Positions 24,883 through 32,940 of a DNA stretch of 64,000 bases are shown in pieces (the stretch's first letter is position 1; every line of letters starts with the position of its first letter). The notes under the pieces are model-generated. The model did no database searches and had not been told where the DNA came from. It worked only from the letters and a program-made list of their open reading frames with translations. Source of the DNA: Anaerolineaceae bacterium (lineage in GTDB: Bacteria; Chloroflexota; Anaerolineae; Anaerolineales; Anaerolineaceae); NCBI GenBank assembly GCA_029265815.1, contig JAJUGU010000001.1, forward strand, positions 186,001-250,000. The letters are read 5' to 3'. Both the position numbers and the translations under genes were made by a program.

Positions 24883-26910
24883 TTACTTTGATTTGATCAT
24901 TTCAAGGAGTTTTTCTTCAGAAATGGTTTGAATACCAAGAGTTCGCGCCTTTTCTAATTTTGAGCCTGCGTTTTCGCCAAGTACCAGGAAATTTGTATTT
25001 TTACTGACACTATCAGTTGTCTTTCCACCTGCTTTTTCAATCATTGCTTTGGCTTCATCTCGAGACAAAGTCGGAAGCGTACCGGTGATGACAAAAATCA
25101 GTCCTGATAGAGGAAGGTCTTCTGGTCGTTCTTGTTGTCTTTCCTCAACAGGCCAGATGCTCAGTTTTTTAAATTTTTCAAGCAATTCTTGGTTCGAATT
25201 CCTTTCAAACCAATCTTTGATTGAAATGGCAATATTCGGTCCAATTCCCTCCACCATTTGCAACTGGTCAATTGAAGCCAGCGCAAGCCGGTCAAGGCTC
25301 AGGAATGCCCGCGCAAGATCTGAAGAGGCCACCTCTCCAACTCCACGAATTCCAAGTGCGTTTAAAAATCTTGCCAGGGAACAATTTCGTGATTGATTGA
25401 TGGAGTAAAGCAAATTTTCAGCTTTCTTTTCTGCAAAACCTTCCAGAGTGAGGAGGTGAGTTTTAGTTAATAGGTACAGATCCGCATAATCTTTGACAAG
25501 GCCAGACGCAACCAATTGTTCAACGATTTTTATTCCCATGCCTTCTATGTTCATTGCCTCTTTGGATACAAAATGCTCCACATTTCGCACCAACTGAGCC
25601 GGACATGATGAGTTAACGCAATAGTACGCCACTTCACCTTCTACGTTTTCTACTTCCTGTCCGCAGGAAGGACATTTATCTGGAATTAAGTAAGGTGTCT
25701 CATTTCCCTTCCGCACTTCGATGATTGGTCCAATAACATAAGGGATGACATCACCTGCGCGCTTAATCATCACCCGATCATTAATTCGGATATCTTTTTC
25801 TTTGATAAAGTCAAAATTATGTAATGTCGCTTGCTTGACGATAACGCCGCCAATCTCTACGGGTTCTAATATGGCATAAGGGGTAAGAACACCCGTGCGC
25901 CCTACATTGACGCCAATATCCTTGAGGATGGTGGATACTTCACGGGCCGGGTATTTTAATGCAATGGCTCCTCTCGGATCTTTTCCAACGTAACCCAGTT
26001 TACCGGCAAGGTCAAGATTATCCAGTTTAATCACCACACCATCCACTTCGAAAGGTATTTGATCTCGAATTTCCATCCAGTGATCGATGCGGTTGAGCAC
26101 CTCATCGAATGATTGGCATCGTTCACAATATTTGCTCACTGGAAAACCAAATTGACGTAGTATTTCTAATGTTCCCCATTGGGTGGATGTTACATTTATC
26201 GAAGTATCAACGATGGCATAGGTTAACAAATAGAGAGGTCGATTCCTCGTTATAGCCGGGTCTAATTGACGTAGGGACCCTGCGGCTGTATTTCGCGGAT
26301 TTTGATACGTCTTTTCACCTAATTTTTCAAGTTGCTTGTTTAGCGCATCAAAATCTTTGCTAAAAATGAAAACTTCTCCTCGGACAACAAATCGATCTGG
26401 AACATTTTTTACATTTTCTTCAACCGGAATTCGCAGGGGGATGGACCGAATTGTGCGCAGATTAGCGGTTATATCTTCGCCGATTTCACCATCTCCACGC
26501 GTTGCTCCTCGAACAAAAACCCCATTTTCGTAATGCAAAACAACGGTTAATCCATCAATTTTCGGTTCCAGTACGAAACCCGAATTTTTAACTCGATTAT
26601 CCAATTTGGTGATGCGCTCATACCATGCCTTTAAATCCTCTTTGTTAAACGCATTTGCCAGCGAAAGAATTGGAGCCGGGTGAACGATTTTTTGAAATTT
26701 TTCTAGAACTTGAGCCCCAGATCGTTGTGTTGGAGAATCCGGTGTTACTAGATCTGGATAGCGTTCTTCCAGCTCATGCAACCTTTTAATCATCATATCG
26801 TATTCATAATCGCTGATGATTGGATCATCCAGAACATGATACCGGTAATTATGATAATTGATCTCTCTCTGAAGAGCTGTTAATTCCCGGCGTTCATCCA
26901 TCTCAGTCAT
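24883..26910 (-). CDS. ligA: NAD-dependent DNA ligase LigA
   Basis: 675 residues. Seals nicks during replication and repair using NAD+. All domains are in order: Ia (YHNYRYHVLDDP), the adenylation domain with catalytic Lys in EPKIDGL (about 115), OB fold (GRTGVLTPYA), the four-Cys zinc finger (CPSCGQEV and CVNSSCPAQL), helix-hairpin-helix repeats (about 430-580), and a C-terminal BRCT domain (LIFVITGTLPTLSRDEAK). AAAGG lies seven bases upstream of the ATG. The enzyme appears fully functional. Confidence 0.97.
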   Translation of the reverse strand: MTEMDERRELTALQREINYHNYRYHVLDDPIISDYEYDMMIKRLHELEERYPDLVTPDSPTQRSGAQVLEKFQKIVHPAPILSLANAFNKEDLKAWYERITKLDNRVKNSGFVLEPKIDGLTVVLHYENGVFVRGATRGDGEIGEDITANLRTIRSIPLRIPVEENVKNVPDRFVVRGEVFIFSKDFDALNKQLEKLGEKTYQNPRNTAAGSLRQLDPAITRNRPLYLLTYAIVDTSINVTSTQWGTLEILRQFGFPVSKYCERCQSFDEVLNRIDHWMEIRDQIPFEVDGVVIKLDNLDLAGKLGYVGKDPRGAIALKYPAREVSTILKDIGVNVGRTGVLTPYAILEPVEIGGVIVKQATLHNFDFIKEKDIRINDRVMIKRAGDVIPYVIGPIIEVRKGNETPYLIPDKCPSCGQEVENVEGEVAYYCVNSSCPAQLVRNVEHFVSKEAMNIEGMGIKIVEQLVASGLVKDYADLYLLTKTHLLTLEGFAEKKAENLLYSINQSRNCSLARFLNALGIRGVGEVASSDLARAFLSLDRLALASIDQLQMVEGIGPNIAISIKDWFERNSNQELLEKFKKLSIWPVEERQQERPEDLPLSGLIFVITGTLPTLSRDEAKAMIEKAGGKTTDSVSKNTNFLVLGENAGSKLEKARTLGIQTISEEKLLEMIKSK

Positions 26911-27018: not shown

Positions 27019-27372
27019 ATGAAAATCGTTGCGTATATCGGAGCTGGGTTACTCATCCTTTTCGGCGCACTTATGGTAATTGGTGCAACTGATCCAACTG
27101 GGAACCCCTCCTGGCTTTTTGTAGGATTGGTTTTAATCGTTGTTGGTCTGGTAATCATTTACTTCGCAGCGCGCCGCAAAGCGCAAGCTCCCACAACTAA
27201 CGTAACACTAAATGTTGATCTGCCTGGTAATGTTAATTTTGACTCATTGAAATGTAAATCTTGTGGTGGAACTCTTACAGCTGAGAATATTTCTATGGTT
27301 AACGGCGCTCCAATGGTTACCTGTCCTTTCTGCCATACGATTTATCAATTAACCGAAGATCCAAAATGGTAA
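27019..27372 (+). CDS. Small membrane protein with C-terminal zinc ribbon
   Basis: 117 residues. Two closely spaced membrane helices (about 4-22 and 31-53) separated by a short loop are followed by a basic segment and a polar stretch. A four-Cys zinc ribbon follows (CKSCGG near residues 78-83 and CPFCHT near 102-107). The ATG at 27019 was chosen because GGAGG lies four bases upstream; an earlier TTG at 27001 has no site. It is 25 bases upstream of the DUF2207 gene and very likely cotranscribed, so it probably serves the same membrane system. The function is unknown. Confidence 0.86.
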   Translation: MKIVAYIGAGLLILFGALMVIGATDPTGNPSWLFVGLVLIVVGLVIIYFAARRKAQAPTTNVTLNVDLPGNVNFDSLKCKSCGGTLTAENISMVNGAPMVTCPFCHTIYQLTEDPKW

Positions 27373-27397
27373 TCGGTCTTTACCCAGGAGGAATCGA

Positions 27398-29131
27398 ATG
27401 AAGTTATTAAGATACATGTGTCTATTCCTGGTTCTAATTGTGCTGGCAGGCAGTGTGACCCCTGTTTCAGCTCAGGATTATCGCTTTCAGGTACCAGAAC
27501 AATCGGTTGTGGTCACGATAAACGTCGATGGAACCATAGCGATCGATTACACCATGACTTTTCAAAATGATTCAGGTGCACACGCCATTGATATTGTTGA
27601 CATCGGTTTACCTAATTATCAATATAAGCTTCAGTCCATTACTGCGGAAATTAACGGTCAACGTATCACAAAAATTACGGACTCTGACATCGTTTCACCA
27701 GGAATTTCTTTGTACCTTCTTAACAATGAAATTCCTGCTGGCGGAACAGGTGTAGTGCACGCGTACATCACGGGCGTGGCTGATGTGATATACCCGGCGA
27801 CACAAGAAGAATCTGAAGAATATGCTTCGCTTCAATTCTGGCCAAACTGGTACGGGAGCGAGTATTGCTATGGCAAAACAAACTATCAGATGACAATCGT
27901 GCTTCCATCGGGATTAAAAGATACTGAAGGTAGATACTTTATTCCAGAAAACTGGCCTGGAGATTCTGAACCATATTCTAGGATTCTCGAGGATGGCAGA
28001 ATTTTCTACACATGGGAATCTGATCAAGCGAATGGTTATACGCAGTATTCTTTTGGGGCATCTTTCCCGGCGCGTTTATTGAATGAAGGTGTGATTGTTA
28101 AAGAACCTTATGTCCCTCCTTCAGATTCTGGATATTCAGGTTCATCGGGTGGATTTAACTTTGATTTAAGTTCCATTTGCCCTGTCATTTTTTGTCTTGG
28201 TTTCGTTGGTTTCTTTGCTTTGATGATTTACTCTGCCACCATCGGTGCCAAGAAACGAAAGATGAAATACCTCCCACCCAAAATCATGATCGAGGGGAAT
28301 GGTATAAAACGCGGTCTTACAGCGATTGAAGCGGGTGTTTTAATGGAACAGCCGATGGATAAGATCTTTACAATGATCCTCTTTTCATTGTTGAAAAAAA
28401 GTGCGGCAGAAGTCATTTCTAAGGAACCTCTCGAAATCAAAGCCTCTGAGCCACTTCCTTCCGGCCTTTATGCATATGAGACTGATTTTTTAGATGCCTT
28501 TAAAGAAACCGGATCTAAACGGAAAAAGTTACTACAGAACACAATGGTCAATTTGATCAAAAGTGTTACTGAAAAAATGAAGGGTTTCAGCCGTAAAGAA
28601 ACAATTGCCTATTATGAAGATATTATGAACCGCGCCTGGGCTCAGGTTGAACAGGCCAATACACCGGATGTTAAGGCTCAGGTGTATGAAGAAGTGATGG
28701 ATTGGACAATGTTGGATAAGAAATATGACGAACGGACAACCGAGGTGTTCAAAGGACCGATCTTCATCCCTGCGCCCTCCTGGTGGTGGCGATACGAGCC
28801 TAAATTCACACGTCCCTCAACCACCGTTTCGATGCCAACCACAACTTCTGCACCTTCTGTTGGAACGGGTGCAAGCCGGCCTACAATTTCGATGCCAAAT
28901 ATTCCAGGCTCTGCATTTGCTGCATCCGTTGTCAATAGTGTATCGTCTTTCTCATCAAACATCCTTGGCGGTCTGACAGGGTTTACCAGTGGTGTAACCA
29001 ACATCACGAACCCACCACCGCCACCTTCAACATATCGAAGCTCTGGCGGTGGTGGTGGCGGTGGCCATTCATGTGCATGCGCTTGCGCCTGTGCTGGTTG
29101 TGCCTGTGCATGTGCAGGTGGCGGTCGATAG
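27398..29131 (+). CDS. DUF2207-like membrane protein with Cys-Ala repeat tail
   Basis: 577 residues. A signal peptide (cleavage near VSA-QD, residue 25) is followed by an extracellular beta-rich DUF2207-type domain (about 26-240) and a single membrane helix near 257-280. A cytoplasmic helical domain (about 295-450, with GVLMEQPMDKI and TDFLDAFKETG) and a Ser/Thr/Pro-rich linker come next. The protein ends in a glycine run and a tail in which seven Cys alternate with Ala, then GGGR. The tail's codons vary (TGT/TGC, GCA/GCT/GCC), so it is kept at protein level and is not recent slippage. The membrane topology puts the tail in the cytoplasm, where the radical SAM enzymes encoded 18 bases downstream would act. 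AGGAGG lies six bases before the ATG. Confidence 0.88.
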   Translation: MKLLRYMCLFLVLIVLAGSVTPVSAQDYRFQVPEQSVVVTINVDGTIAIDYTMTFQNDSGAHAIDIVDIGLPNYQYKLQSITAEINGQRITKITDSDIVSPGISLYLLNNEIPAGGTGVVHAYITGVADVIYPATQEESEEYASLQFWPNWYGSEYCYGKTNYQMTIVLPSGLKDTEGRYFIPENWPGDSEPYSRILEDGRIFYTWESDQANGYTQYSFGASFPARLLNEGVIVKEPYVPPSDSGYSGSSGGFNFDLSSICPVIFCLGFVGFFALMIYSATIGAKKRKMKYLPPKIMIEGNGIKRGLTAIEAGVLMEQPMDKIFTMILFSLLKKSAAEVISKEPLEIKASEPLPSGLYAYETDFLDAFKETGSKRKKLLQNTMVNLIKSVTEKMKGFSRKETIAYYEDIMNRAWAQVEQANTPDVKAQVYEEVMDWTMLDKKYDERTTEVFKGPIFIPAPSWWWRYEPKFTRPSTTVSMPTTTSAPSVGTGASRPTISMPNIPGSAFAASVVNSVSSFSSNILGGLTGFTSGVTNITNPPPPPSTYRSSGGGGGGGHSCACACACAGCACACAGGGR

Positions 29132-29149
29132 AAAAATCAAGCCAATATT

Positions 29150-30505
29150 ATGAAACTTTTTCATAAGTTCAAGATTGGTACACCTGTTCCGGAGGTTTTC
29201 CCGCCGAAAGCCGGGTTGTACCATTTTCTTCGTGAATCAGACCATCAGAAATCACGCCTGCATTTACGAATTGATCCTGATAATTCCGGTTTATTGATGA
29301 TTAATGCCAGCCGGGTATTTCACTTAAATCCCTCAGCTTCACATATGGCGTTTTATATCTTATCTGAAACGCCTTTTAAAAGTGCCATCAATGCACTTTC
29401 AAAGACTTTTAACGAACCAAAGCAAGCACTCTTGCGCGATTTTGAAACTTTTCACCAAACGATCAACAGTCTTATGAATGATCAAGTCTGTCCGATTTGT
29501 GACCTTGATTTGGAAACAACGGCTCCATTTACAGCTCGCCCCACAGCTCCATACCGAATGGATCTCGCCTTGACGTATCGCTGCAACAATGCGTGCGCTC
29601 ATTGTTACAACGCCAGGTCTCGAAATTATCCAGAATTGTCAACGCAAGAATGGTTTGCAATTCTTGATAAGCTCTGGAACCTGGGGATTCCACACATCGT
29701 CTTCACAGGTGGGGAGCCCACTCTACGGGACGATCTGCCAGAATTGATCAAACACGCAGAAGGTAACGGTCAGATTACCGGTTTAAACACCAACGGAAGG
29801 AAACTTAAAAATCGTAATTTTGTGAATCAACTGATCGATGCCGGGCTCGATCATGTGCAGATCACACTTGAATCTCACCTTGCAGAAATCCATGACAAAA
29901 TGGTCTGTCATGCTGGTGCATGGGAAGAAACAGTTGCAGGTATTGAAAACGTATTAAAAACACGTTTATATGTAATGACAAACACGACCATGTTAACGCA
30001 TAACAGCCCAACCATTCCGCAAACATTGGAATTTTTAGCGAAACTCGGACTGCCAACTGTGGGGTTGAACGCATTGATTTATTCAGGTCATGGAAAGACT
30101 GTTGGAACAGGACTTTCTGAAAAGGATCTTCTTCCGCTTCTTACTTCTGCAAAGGAGATTACATCAAACTATGGTCAGAAATTAATCTGGTATACCCCCA
30201 CTCAGTATTGCCATTTTGATCCTGTAATTATGGGATTAGGTGTCAAAGGATGTACTGCCGCTTTATATAATATGTGCATAGAGCCTGATGGCAGTGTCCT
30301 TCCATGTCAATCTTATTATCATTCTTTGGGAAATATTCAAAAAGATAATTGGATTGCCATTTGGAATCACGATCTGGCTATATCACTGCGTGAAAGAAAG
30401 AATATCCCTGAAAAGTGTGCTACATGTGCAATATATAATGAATGTGGTGGTGGTTGTCCATTAACATTTGAGGTTGAGAATCAATTATGCATGGAGGAAC
30501 AATGA
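29150..30505 (+). CDS. Radical SAM/SPASM enzyme with N-terminal PqqD-like domain
   Basis: 451 residues. Residues 35-110 resemble PqqD, the RiPP-recognition fold (LLMINASRVFHLN, then two helices). An extra CPIC pair lies at 114-117. The radical SAM core has CNNACAHC (Cys145, 149, 152) for the 4Fe-4S cluster, and TGGEPT near 187-192 for SAM. The C-terminal SPASM region carries a CTAALYNMC...PC segment and CATCAIYNECGGGC for auxiliary clusters. Such enzymes modify peptide substrates (thioether, C-C or epimer formation). The neighbouring Cys-Ala tail is the obvious candidate substrate. Start ATG at 29150, 18 bases after the DUF2207 stop, with a weak ribosome site suggesting coupling. Confidence 0.93.
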   Translation: MKLFHKFKIGTPVPEVFPPKAGLYHFLRESDHQKSRLHLRIDPDNSGLLMINASRVFHLNPSASHMAFYILSETPFKSAINALSKTFNEPKQALLRDFETFHQTINSLMNDQVCPICDLDLETTAPFTARPTAPYRMDLALTYRCNNACAHCYNARSRNYPELSTQEWFAILDKLWNLGIPHIVFTGGEPTLRDDLPELIKHAEGNGQITGLNTNGRKLKNRNFVNQLIDAGLDHVQITLESHLAEIHDKMVCHAGAWEETVAGIENVLKTRLYVMTNTTMLTHNSPTIPQTLEFLAKLGLPTVGLNALIYSGHGKTVGTGLSEKDLLPLLTSAKEITSNYGQKLIWYTPTQYCHFDPVIMGLGVKGCTAALYNMCIEPDGSVLPCQSYYHSLGNIQKDNWIAIWNHDLAISLRERKNIPEKCATCAIYNECGGGCPLTFEVENQLCMEEQ

Positions 30506-31674
30506 AATCAAGAATTCGTTCTTTTTTTGACAGAATCTTCTATACACCCACCCCGCTCCCTCCTGGAACTTTTCAAACGATTATGGAGATAAACGGGGTT
30601 CTATACCGCCTTCATTTACGAATTGAGCAAGAAGGAAAAGGTCTGTTGATTGTAAATGCTTCTACGATCCTCCATCTCAATCGCACCGCTGCAGAAATTG
30701 CTTTTTACTTGATAAATAAAACTCCTATTGAGCAGATCATTTCATCAATGATGCGTCGGTATCAAGTTACAGCTGATATTGCGGCACAGGATGTTGAAAA
30801 TTTTAAAATTCGGATTGAATCCCTCATTCAGACCCCCGACCTTGATCCTGAAACATTTCTCGACATGGAACGGATTGAGCGCCATACAGATGAATTGGTC
30901 ACTCCTATTCGTCTCGATTGCGCCCTTACATATCAATCTTCTGAAGGCGCATCGAGTTTGTATGCGCCTCTTGACCGTGTAAAACGGTCTCTTGACACGG
31001 AAGAATGGAAAGAAATCCTCAAGAAGTCTTGGAACGCTGGAATCCCCCATATCATATTTACCGGAGGGGAACCAACGATACGACCAGATTTAGAGGAATT
31101 GATCCAGTATGCAGAATCTTTAGGTCAGGTAACTGGTGTCATTACAGATGGGTTACGCTTAACAGATTCAGATTATTTGCATAAACTACTTAATGCAGGT
31201 TTAGATCATATAATGATCATTCTTCAACCTGATGAAGAACAGTCATGGGAAGCCATTCGGGATGTGCTTAATGAGGATATTTATCTATCAGTCCACTTAA
31301 CAATCAATGAAAAGAATAGAAATCGTATTCCATCTATCCTAAGAAAAATCAAAGATATGGGGGTAAAAGCACTATCCTTAAGTGTGACATCAACTGAACT
31401 GGTGAATGAATTATCTTATGCCTCTCGCACTTCAGCAGAAATGGGATTACATCTTGTTTATGATCTTCCGGTTCCATATTCCGTATTAAATCCAGTTGGA
31501 GTTGAAATGGAACAACATGAAGCAACCAAACAAGGAGCCGGGAGATCATGGCTTTATATTGAACCAGATGGAGATGTATTGTTAGGACAGGGATCAGAAG
31601 TATGCATTGGGAATTTTCTTACTGATCCCTGGGAGACAATTTCTGGAAATCGAAAATTGGAGCCTTCCAAATAA
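30502..31674 (+). CDS. Degenerate radical SAM paralogue with PqqD-like domain, cluster cysteines lost
   Basis: 390 residues, clearly homologous to the preceding enzyme along its length (LLIVNASTILHLN; IPHIIFTGGEPT; AGLDHIMI; IEPDGDVLLGQ). The position of CxxxCxxC now reads SSEGASSL, so none of the three cluster Cys remains. The SPASM Cys are missing too, and the protein ends about 60 residues short. It cannot hold the SAM cluster, yet the reading frame is intact, so it is probably a pseudoenzyme partner that binds substrate or pairs with the active copy. The ATG at 30502 has GGAGG four bases upstream and overlaps the previous stop as ATGA. Confidence 0.88.
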   Translation: MKSRIRSFFDRIFYTPTPLPPGTFQTIMEINGVLYRLHLRIEQEGKGLLIVNASTILHLNRTAAEIAFYLINKTPIEQIISSMMRRYQVTADIAAQDVENFKIRIESLIQTPDLDPETFLDMERIERHTDELVTPIRLDCALTYQSSEGASSLYAPLDRVKRSLDTEEWKEILKKSWNAGIPHIIFTGGEPTIRPDLEELIQYAESLGQVTGVITDGLRLTDSDYLHKLLNAGLDHIMIILQPDEEQSWEAIRDVLNEDIYLSVHLTINEKNRNRIPSILRKIKDMGVKALSLSVTSTELVNELSYASRTSAEMGLHLVYDLPVPYSVLNPVGVEMEQHEATKQGAGRSWLYIEPDGDVLLGQGSEVCIGNFLTDPWETISGNRKLEPSK

Positions 31675-32418
31675 ATGAATGTTGATTGGCACCTGAGATA
31701 CCAACAACAAAGTTACTGGACTCGCTCATTACGTCAATATCTATTACAAAGGGTATCCATTCATCCAACCTCCAATGTACTGGAGGTTGGATGTGGAACA
31801 GGAGTGATTTGTTCGGATTTATTGGATCACTTTCCGTGTCACCTATTTGGTATTGATATTGTTTTTTCAAACATTGATATTGCTATGCGAAATGTCTCAA
31901 AATTGTGTGCAATCTGTGGCGATGCCAATTTTTTACCTTTTCCCTCAGGCTTTTTTGAGATGGTGTATTGCCATTACTTTCTTCTCTGGCTTGCCAATCC
32001 ACTTCAAGTTATCGCAGAAATTAAGAGAGTTCTTCGTCCTGGTGGATTTTTTCTTATTTTTGCGGAACCCGATCACTCTGCTCGTATCGATTTTCCTTCT
32101 GCATTGAATCCTCTTGGCAAATTACAGGTTTCATCACTAAAAATACAGGGAGCAGATATTCAAATTGGTCGAAAAATTCCCGGGTTACTTTCTAAGGCAG
32201 GTTTTCACGATATTCAATATGGCATCTCTGGATTTGAATCCTGCTCTGGTTCGCTTCCAGATTGGTGGGAATCAGAATGGGAAGTGATTCGACACGATCT
32301 TAAATCAATAGTTAGCGATGACAGACTGAACAATTATCAGGATTTAGATAAAAAATGCTGGGAAGCAGGAACTAGGATTCTCTGGGTGCCAACTTTTTAC
32401 GCGATTGCCATAAATTAG
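31675..32418 (+). CDS. Class I SAM-dependent methyltransferase
   Basis: 247 residues. Motif I is VLEVGCGTGV, with GIDI for the ribose-binding acid. CGDANFLPFPSGFFEMVYC is motif II/III, and VLRPGGFFLIFAEPD the post-motif. This is the Methyltransf_11/UbiE-like group, and the substrate cannot be predicted. The ATG immediately follows the stop of the degenerate radical SAM gene, so it belongs to the same operon and may methylate the same peptide or protein. Confidence 0.9.
   Translation: MNVDWHLRYQQQSYWTRSLRQYLLQRVSIHPTSNVLEVGCGTGVICSDLLDHFPCHLFGIDIVFSNIDIAMRNVSKLCAICGDANFLPFPSGFFEMVYCHYFLLWLANPLQVIAEIKRVLRPGGFFLIFAEPDHSARIDFPSALNPLGKLQVSSLKIQGADIQIGRKIPGLLSKAGFHDIQYGISGFESCSGSLPDWWESEWEVIRHDLKSIVSDDRLNNYQDLDKKCWEAGTRILWVPTFYAIAIN

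Positions 32419-32671: not shown

Positions 32672-32940
<269 letters not shown>

Follow-up and report, generated by a model that had tools for sequence, protein, structure and literature searches.

A Candidate Radical SAM Modification System for the Near-Invariant Cys-Ala Tail of a Predicted Membrane Protein in Bacteria and Archaea

Sactipeptide maturases such as SkfB and AlbA, which combine a domain resembling the recognition element (RRE) of ribosomally synthesized and post-translationally modified peptides (RiPPs), a radical S-adenosylmethionine (SAM) core and a C-terminal cluster domain, act on small peptides; PqqE, whose radical SAM/SPASM core goes with a PqqD-like domain, links a Glu to a Tyr within a small peptide and is not known to have a pseudoenzyme partner. 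A working protein is modified in quinohemoprotein amine dehydrogenase, where the radical SAM enzyme QhpD, encoded in the same operon and helped by the partner protein QhpG, puts thioethers into the enzyme subunit QhpC, using Asp and Glu as acceptors, and a leader is cut off by the protease QhpE (accessible text of PMC8172795 and PMC7876137). For the TIGR04222 membrane proteins, which carry a low-complexity, Cys-containing C-terminus and are encoded beside an oxidative RiPP-type enzyme, an MNIO, modification of the tail has been proposed (accessible text of PMC12452194). Here we describe a cassette at positions 27019-32418 (forward strand) of a 64,000-nucleotide stretch, called the window below (positions 186,001 to 250,000 of contig JAJUGU010000001.1, assembly GCA_029265815.1), from an Anaerolineaceae bacterium of the Chloroflexota with a genome of 2.58 Mb that is 99% complete. 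Its five genes, tightly packed head to tail (table 1), encode a small membrane protein (zr), a protein with a C-terminal Cys-Ala tail (the tail protein), a radical SAM/SPASM enzyme (r1), a relative of r1 without cluster ligands (r2), and a methyltransferase (mt). The best explanation of the whole, and in our judgment a probable one, is that the cassette builds a modified cytoplasmic tail on a membrane-anchored protein. A preliminary description of this DNA had reported a Cys-Ala tail with seven Cys and, 18 bases further on, a radical SAM/SPASM gene in a collinear, closely packed series, with which the coordinates of the open reading frames (ORFs) agree; it had recognized four of the genes and overlooked zr within the same interval.

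The ORF of the tail protein ends in ...GGGGGGGHSCACACACAGCACACAGGGR, with seven Cys alternating with Ala. The motif (CA)n-G-(CA)m-GGGR-stop, in which the first G is optional, was found in 124 of the 136 loci examined; by eye, the other 12 are contig ends, matches to domains other than the tail, and a deviant tail in Methanocella. The most frequent form was seen 82 times, each of 117 distinct tails has 6, 7, or 8 Cys-Ala units, and the core is composed of C, A, G, and R only. An identical core of 19 residues is present in 94 loci, where it is written by 88 different DNA sequences: Per 19 core codons, differences amount to 10.9 at the third position and 0.36 at the first, with 0 at the second. 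Neighboring Cys-Ala units were identical at the DNA level in 49 of 264 cases, against a proportion of 0.22 expected from codon usage, and no signature of slippage was seen. The loci come from named genomes and from a set of relatives that overlap, so that some genomes are counted twice in the tail, codon, cluster-Cys, and neighbor counts; duplicates were removed for the counts of local genes and of tail classes (117 distinct tails). As the codons are randomized under a fixed protein sequence, the tail is under strong selection at the protein level in both bacteria and archaea, and DNA slippage or chance low complexity is ruled out as its origin. The Gly/Ser-rich linker in front of the tail does vary freely, as ordinary low complexity would; that the Cys-Ala run itself is of this kind, with unrelated genes as its neighbors, has a negligible probability given the codon pattern and the maintenance of the operon across Phyla.

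The association of the tail with the enzyme is well supported. Across 101 related genomes both were found in 75 and neither in 22, with the tail alone in two and the enzyme alone in two; this tabulation was made by hand and took a best E <= 1e-20 as a strong enzyme match, so that ten genomes with weaker matches (G008 included) were scored as lacking the enzyme. The two genomes with the tail alone are G008, where the match covers only residues 21-237 in a frame of 1001 codons, and G038, where the gene runs off the contig, and the two with the enzyme alone are G100, with r1 at a contig edge, and G095, a modest match and the one unexplained case. The preliminary description would have been contradicted by many genomes with a single partner, and there are 4 in 101. 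In the flanked set, comprising the 90 of the 117 distinct tails whose flanks reach 500 bases or more upstream and 4 kb or more downstream, a local active enzyme was encoded at 85 loci, a pseudoenzyme at 72, zr at 84, and mt at 79. Four of the five loci without a local active enzyme have one elsewhere in the genome (L126, at L127; L185; L212; L218), and in the fifth, L119, r1 is split into two ORFs. A search for the enzyme elsewhere in eight genomes gave an active type in seven; that of L183 yielded only the pseudoenzyme and broken pieces.

Within the phylum, a profile of the tail protein found 29 of 400 genomes: the source genome, 8 of its family, 18 of its order, one weak match in its class, and one genome of another class (G110, with 8% contamination). 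The distribution is far from confined to the Chloroflexota: A scan of contigs from named genomes gave at least 55 tail-protein records, at least 27 of them from this phylum and at least 28 from others, with at least 11 archaeal records belonging to the Heimdall-, Hod-, and Sigynarchaeota (Asgard), the Methanomassiliicoccales, another Thermoplasmatota lineage, and Methanocella. An active-type gene stands beside the tail in 25 of the 28 non-Chloroflexota records listed, and L197, L205, and L218 have one elsewhere. Among cultured hosts, Ornatilinea apprima P3M-1 and Leptolinea sp. HRD-7 each possess the tail, r1, r2, and mt. Contamination of metagenome-assembled genomes was considered as a source of this wide spread: Single loci may be misbinned, yet the archaeal enzymes form sets of their own in a quick tree, one for the Heimdall- and Hodarchaeota (5 rows, support 99) and one for the Thermoplasmatota (3 rows, support 99). 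Phage cargo was rejected, as viral contigs gave no relative among the 300 pattern matches listed (plasmids were not searched), and so was a defense system, for which the PADLOC matches were to radical SAM cores of the viperin type and to models of methyltransferases, mad2 among them, and those in PHROGs to generic radical SAM only.

Among the cassette proteins, r1 is the only enzyme with a radical SAM cluster motif, and it has both the CX3CX2C motif and the auxiliary-cluster cysteines of RiPP-type radical SAM/SPASM maturases. Eight SPASM cysteines (C354, C368, C376, C386, C423, C426, C432, and C436) are putative cluster ligands, being Cys in 125 active-class ORFs at frequencies of 0.98, 1.0, 0.86, 1.0, 1.0, 1.0, 1.0, and 1.0, respectively. 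Pfam detects Radical_SAM and SPASM in r1, PqqD and part of Radical_SAM in r2, and a class I methyltransferase in mt, the last as had been proposed for the end of the cassette. The earlier assignment of a PqqD-like domain (PF05402) holds for r2 (E = 5.1e-7) and is weak for r1 taken alone (E = 0.073). The domain was matched in 15 of 26 members of an alignment mixing both enzyme types, and the joint r1/r2 profile has a match in TfuB1, a protein for the recognition of lasso peptides (E = 1.3e-5), so that a RiPP recognition domain is indicated through r2, the mixed alignment, and the TfuB1 match. The nearest solved relatives of the enzyme profile by sequence are SkfB and then PqqE. In NCBIfam, r1 remained under the cut-off of all 25 (of 71) families listed, with a best score of 128 bits against a cut-off of 525, and no cassette protein reached a cut-off among the matches listed. 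Judged from its sequences, the system is one of RiPP-like modification by a radical SAM/SPASM enzyme, of a family that reaches no NCBIfam cut-off listed. A short precursor peptide, of the kind whose leader is cleaved in RiPPs, was not found, the candidate precursor being a membrane protein of 577 residues.

Although r2 had been taken for a second copy of the enzyme, its sequence is that of a pseudoenzyme. In the alignment, the CNNACAHC of r1 faces QSSEGASS in r2, and none of the SPASM cysteines is present in r2. Among 226 ORFs of the family (those over 150 bits and over 300 profile positions, from the loci analyzed), all three cluster cysteines are present in 125 and none in 101, with no partial case; the pseudo ORFs never have Cys at the first four SPASM positions and have it at the last four with a frequency of 0.10-0.11. 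The predicted structure of r2 (mean predicted local distance difference test score, pLDDT, of 82.5) is nearest to SkfB and PqqE, followed by BlsE and SuiB, which together with the loss of the cluster cysteines indicates a fold that was kept and ligands that are gone. Two active radical SAM enzymes in the cassette are ruled out, as r2 has no cluster cysteines. In the quick tree the active ORFs form one set (support 93), and the pseudo ORFs form a clade of Anaerolineae-type loci (support 96) and a second clade of Armatimonadota, Planctomycetota, and other Chloroflexota (support 100). The pseudoenzyme was not found at the tail loci of whole lineages, among them archaea, Zixibacteria, Fermentibacteria, and Aminicenantes, where for most the search covered the locus only.

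Ahead of the tail lies a conserved segment that may serve as a leader. The tripeptide TNP occurs within 75 residues ahead of the tail in 97 of the 117 distinct tails; in 11 it is replaced by a class II motif, [GA][AVF]D[KRH][VA] (as in SGVDKVTGDVF), and nine, mostly archaeal, have neither, usually with a related Pro segment. Class II tails accompany the clade II versions of both enzymes, r1-II and r2-II. At four loci (L123, L125, L193, and L219, the last apparently from the same genome as L123) the active enzyme has been swapped: A TNP-class tail stands beside r2-I, and the active enzyme is of clade II. The same swap is split over two places at L126/L127 and L185/L230, the enzyme clade of L127 being judged from size and identity. 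The r1 proteins of L123, L125, and L230 form one clade, so that the swap was probably a single event. Tail class thus goes with the pseudoenzyme rather than with the catalyst, a hint, short of proof, that the substrate is chosen by r2.

Some further features were seen around these clade II enzymes. Several active enzymes of clade II (L123:4002-5684, L125:8630-10264, and L138-L140) have an extra Cys/Gly-rich C-terminal extension, with CSGCSGSCGT in several of them, which resembles a second tail, carried by the enzyme. In swap genomes, a shorter paralog of the tail protein that lacks a Cys-Ala tail is encoded near the clade II active enzyme (L123:6259-7131, L127:7102-8112, L193:9932-10936).

The AlphaFold model of the tail protein (mean pLDDT 71) comprises a signal helix, a beta-sandwich, a transmembrane helix, a winged-helix-like segment at residues 309-349, and helices at 359-450. 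Hydropathy gives a single transmembrane segment after the signal peptide, with five basic residues behind it; by the positive-inside rule the C-terminus, and with it the Cys-Ala tail, should be cytoplasmic. Variants from Armatimonadota and Planctomycetota have two or three hydrophobic segments (by eye three), and three would keep the C-terminus inside. Foldseek returned only broad matches with low template-modelling scores, mostly to M1 aminopeptidase domains, which are uninformative on function, and neither Pfam nor NCBIfam has a family that covers the protein of the window. The earlier assignment to DUF2207 (PF09972/PF20990) had to be given up: The window protein has no DUF2207 match in Pfam at E <= 10, and of 27 homologs one matched DUF2207 (E = 0.0053) and two DUF2207_C (best E = 0.04), so by these profiles DUF2207 is only distant kin. 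TIGR04222 likewise has no match to the window protein at E <= 1, with weak matches in 4 of the 27 homologs (best E = 0.00083).

The TIGR04222/MNIO system differs from the cassette in several respects. Its enzyme is an MNIO, whereas here it is a radical SAM protein; MNIO (PF05114) had no match in the genome of the window and was positive in 2 of 14 control genomes. According to the accessible text of PMC12452194, its tails are Ser/Gly-rich with interspersed Cys, more than a quarter of them without a C-proximal Cys, and its low-complexity regions are predicted to be periplasmic, whereas the tail described here is predicted to be cytoplasmic and is nearly invariant; about one-third of its genomes lack MNIO, against 2 of our tail-bearing genomes scored as lacking the enzyme and 75 with it. 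The proposal in the preliminary description of a RiPP-like modification of a membrane-protein tail is strengthened by the co-occurrence, the near-invariance of the tail, and its predicted topology; the chemistry that it gave as an example, Cys thioethers followed by methylation, is plausible.

The fifth gene, zr, encodes a protein that ends in PKW in 112 of 114 copies. By profile it is found in Zixibacteria, Aminicenantes, Acidobacteriota, Fermentibacteria, Armatimonadota, Planctomycetota, and some archaeal loci, and the profile found none in the loci of Heimdallarchaeota. The conserved Lys-Trp end, the position of zr next to the tail gene, and the presence of the Lys-Trp cyclase SuiB among the structural relatives of r2 would fit an enzyme that acts on zr, with the tail serving another purpose. 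Since zr is not found in 6 of the 90 flanked loci, all six of which have a family enzyme (of the active type in five; L212 has its active one elsewhere), and its composition is ordinary, we regard zr as a very improbable substrate. The best NCBIfam matches of mt are the DVU_1556 family and BioC, both under the cut-off; r2 weakly matches TrsS, the DVU_1556 and TrsS matches are far under the cut-off, and we take these two families to belong to one other radical SAM system. Of the genomes without mt beside the tail, eleven were searched, and a strong match (131 bits or more) lies elsewhere in eight of them; the genomes of L129 and L126, outside these eleven, also have no local mt, and that of L126 has its mt at L127.

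Clustering of neighboring genes at the 136 loci gave 22 clusters present in at least five loci, four of which are the tail protein, both enzyme types together, mt, and zr. Fifteen others were checked with Pfam through one member each. They included no peptidase and nothing recognizable as a transporter or regulator of metals; two had no Pfam match, and among the rest are an L,D-transpeptidase, an MFS transporter, and an ABC ATPase, the last at scattered positions in 13 loci. The remaining three are, by eye, a DNA ligase and two apparent antisense frames of cassette genes. In the absence of a peptidase from the clusters checked, the product probably stays on the protein. This sets the cassette apart from the QhpD system, as does the lack of Asp and Glu in the core tail.

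The reading that we prefer can be put as a series of steps. The tail protein would cross the membrane once, with its C-terminal part staying in the cytoplasm, where the PqqD/RRE-like regions of r1 and r2 would hold the conserved segment that precedes the Gly linker. r1 would then abstract hydrogens in (Cys-Ala)n-Gly-(Cys-Ala)n, most likely so that the sulfur of Cys is linked, across the Gly hinge, to the alpha-carbon of Ala or Gly. In the lineages that have it, r2 would be a noncatalytic adaptor that sets the choice of substrate, comparable to QhpG as a partner, here in the form of a pseudo radical SAM protein. mt would cap a remaining nucleophile, be it a Cys thiol, the C-terminal carboxylate, or Arg, and the product would remain bound to the protein, in a housekeeping, redox, or metal role and not as an exported toxin. 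That r1 acts on the tail we consider highly probable; the adaptor role of r2 stands at an even chance, and thioether chemistry falls a little short of that.

With only Cys, Ala, Gly, and Arg in the core tail, the chemistry is limited to alpha-carbons, methyl and methylene groups, thiols, the Arg side chain, and the C-terminus. The tail does not fit CxAxR, the motif of anaerobic sulfatase maturases. Thioethers from sulfur to alpha-carbon are favored because SkfB tolerates Ala as an alpha-carbon acceptor (accessible text of PMC8326336) and because QhpD works on a protein with the help of a partner; alternatively, the product may be a radical lanthionine (sulfur to the Ala methyl carbon) or a metal-organic site. 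In a related alternative, the thiols of the tail form an array that binds metal or a cluster, similar to metallothionein or to an Fe-S site, and the enzymes build or tune a metal-organic site without any crosslinking. With Cys in alternation, all thiols could come to lie on one face, metal arrays might tolerate the variation in unit number, zr has a CxxC...CxxC metal-binding pattern, and bufferins modified by MNIO chelate copper (accessible text of PMC12452194). We nevertheless hold a thiol array to be unlikely, as the enzyme profile has peptide maturases for its two closest solved relatives and the 15 neighbor clusters offered nothing recognizable for metal transport or regulation.

Several observations weigh against a modified, protein-bound tail as set out above. 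In known sactipeptides, Cys and acceptors lie in separate halves, unlike the strict alternation seen here. The confidence of the tail-protein model is under a pLDDT of 50 at the C-terminus including the tail, and its predicted template-modelling score is 0.42. zr and mt are sometimes nonlocal, and the genomes of L206, L220, and L223 have only weak, generic-looking methyltransferase matches. The tail class agrees with the enzyme tree, changing on it 4 times where 200 shuffles gave a mean of 13.1 (45 rows); this speaks for our reading, yet is weak proof, as both are inherited with the lineage. At L220:6779-8641, the Methanocella tail is off-pattern (SSCACVSCACACVSCACACACAGGGGGCT) and might be a degenerate or differently processed variant. 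The substrates of QhpD and of the freyrasin enzyme use Asp or Glu acceptors, which are missing here (accessible text of PMC8172795). Finally, at 11 of the 136 loci (e.g., L064:9156-10508), mostly in the genus of the window, mt is followed by a same-strand gene for an MFS transporter, although the window itself has no MFS gene there; a small product that is exported or imported would fit such a gene.

The MFS gene would thus speak for the tail as the precursor of a small diffusible cofactor that is cut out of the protein, in the manner of pyrroloquinoline quinone from PqqA and of mycofactocin from MftA, and so would the PqqD-like domain, the place of PqqE as second-nearest solved relative, and the conserved GGGR C-terminus. 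We consider this quite improbable: The would-be precursor is a 577-residue membrane protein with conserved domains, no peptidase was among the 15 neighbor clusters checked, and the MFS gene is confined to a few, mostly congeneric, genomes. Returning to the modified membrane-bound tail, its fullest form would be an ancient maturation system shared by bacteria and archaea, the Asgard archaea included, in which r1, often steered by r2, makes a permanent polythioether or metal-organic tail for redox or sensing as a housekeeping task; this we put forward tentatively, with somewhat more doubt than conviction.

The coordinates of the cassette features are collected in table 1. The r2 ATG overlaps the r1 stop, with a GGAGG upstream of it. 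Divergent from the cassette and upstream of it, at 24883-26910 of the window, is a DNA ligase-like gene; homologs are present in 43 of the 136 clustered loci. Downstream, at 32729-32940, a 93-base unit is repeated in 2.3 copies (98% matches), beginning at the 3' end of a tRNA-Pro gene; it is a tandem duplication behind the tRNA that copies the 3' end of tRNA-Pro and a terminator-like hairpin.

Table 1. Features of the Cassette, with Positions Counted from the First Base of the Window.
Feature	Position	Strand	Description and basis
zr	27019..27372	+	117-aa membrane protein with zinc-ribbon/rubredoxin-like CxxC...CPxC domain, C-terminus EDPKW; sequence and profile
Tail protein	27398..29131	+	577 aa; signal peptide, beta-sandwich, one transmembrane helix, winged-helix-like and helical domains, Gly linker, Cys-Ala tail
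Beta-sandwich domain, aa 30-224	27485..28069	+	AlphaFold model, pLDDT mostly near 90; predicted outside
Transmembrane helix, aa 261-289 (model)	28178..28264	+	Model and hydropathy peak at 255-284, with five basic residues behind it
Candidate recognition (leader-like) segment FTSGVTNITNPPPPP, aa 529-543	28982..29026	+	Conservation of TNP; putative recognition role
Core tail CACACACAGCACACAGGGR, aa 559-577, C-terminus	29072..29128	+	Same 19 residues in 94 loci
r1, radical SAM/SPASM enzyme	29150..30505	+	Cluster motifs intact; N-terminal PqqD/RRE-like region
r1 CX3CX2C cluster motif CNNACAHC, aa 145-152	29582..29605	+	
r1 SPASM region, C354 to C436 (eight Cys)	30209..30457	+	
r2, pseudo radical SAM protein	30502..31674	+	PqqD/RRE-like domain and barrel without cluster ligands
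r2 site of the lost CX3CX2C motif (QSSEGASSLY)	30934..30963	+	Alignment
mt, class I SAM methyltransferase	31675..32418	+	Pfam

No published description of the cassette was found in the open-licence literature, taken without preprints and most subscription journals, and an earlier notice is possible. Compared with the literature found, the near-invariant Cys-Ala tail on a predicted cytoplasmic end, the dedicated pseudo radical SAM partner, and the spread over two domains of life are new. The restricted chemistry of the tail leaves few products, which can be tested, and through the natural enzyme swap it becomes possible to test what a radical SAM partner without catalytic activity does. If our reading is true, RiPP-style radical chemistry would be a conserved step in the maturation of a membrane protein across a broad range of prokaryotes, beyond its use on small secreted peptides.

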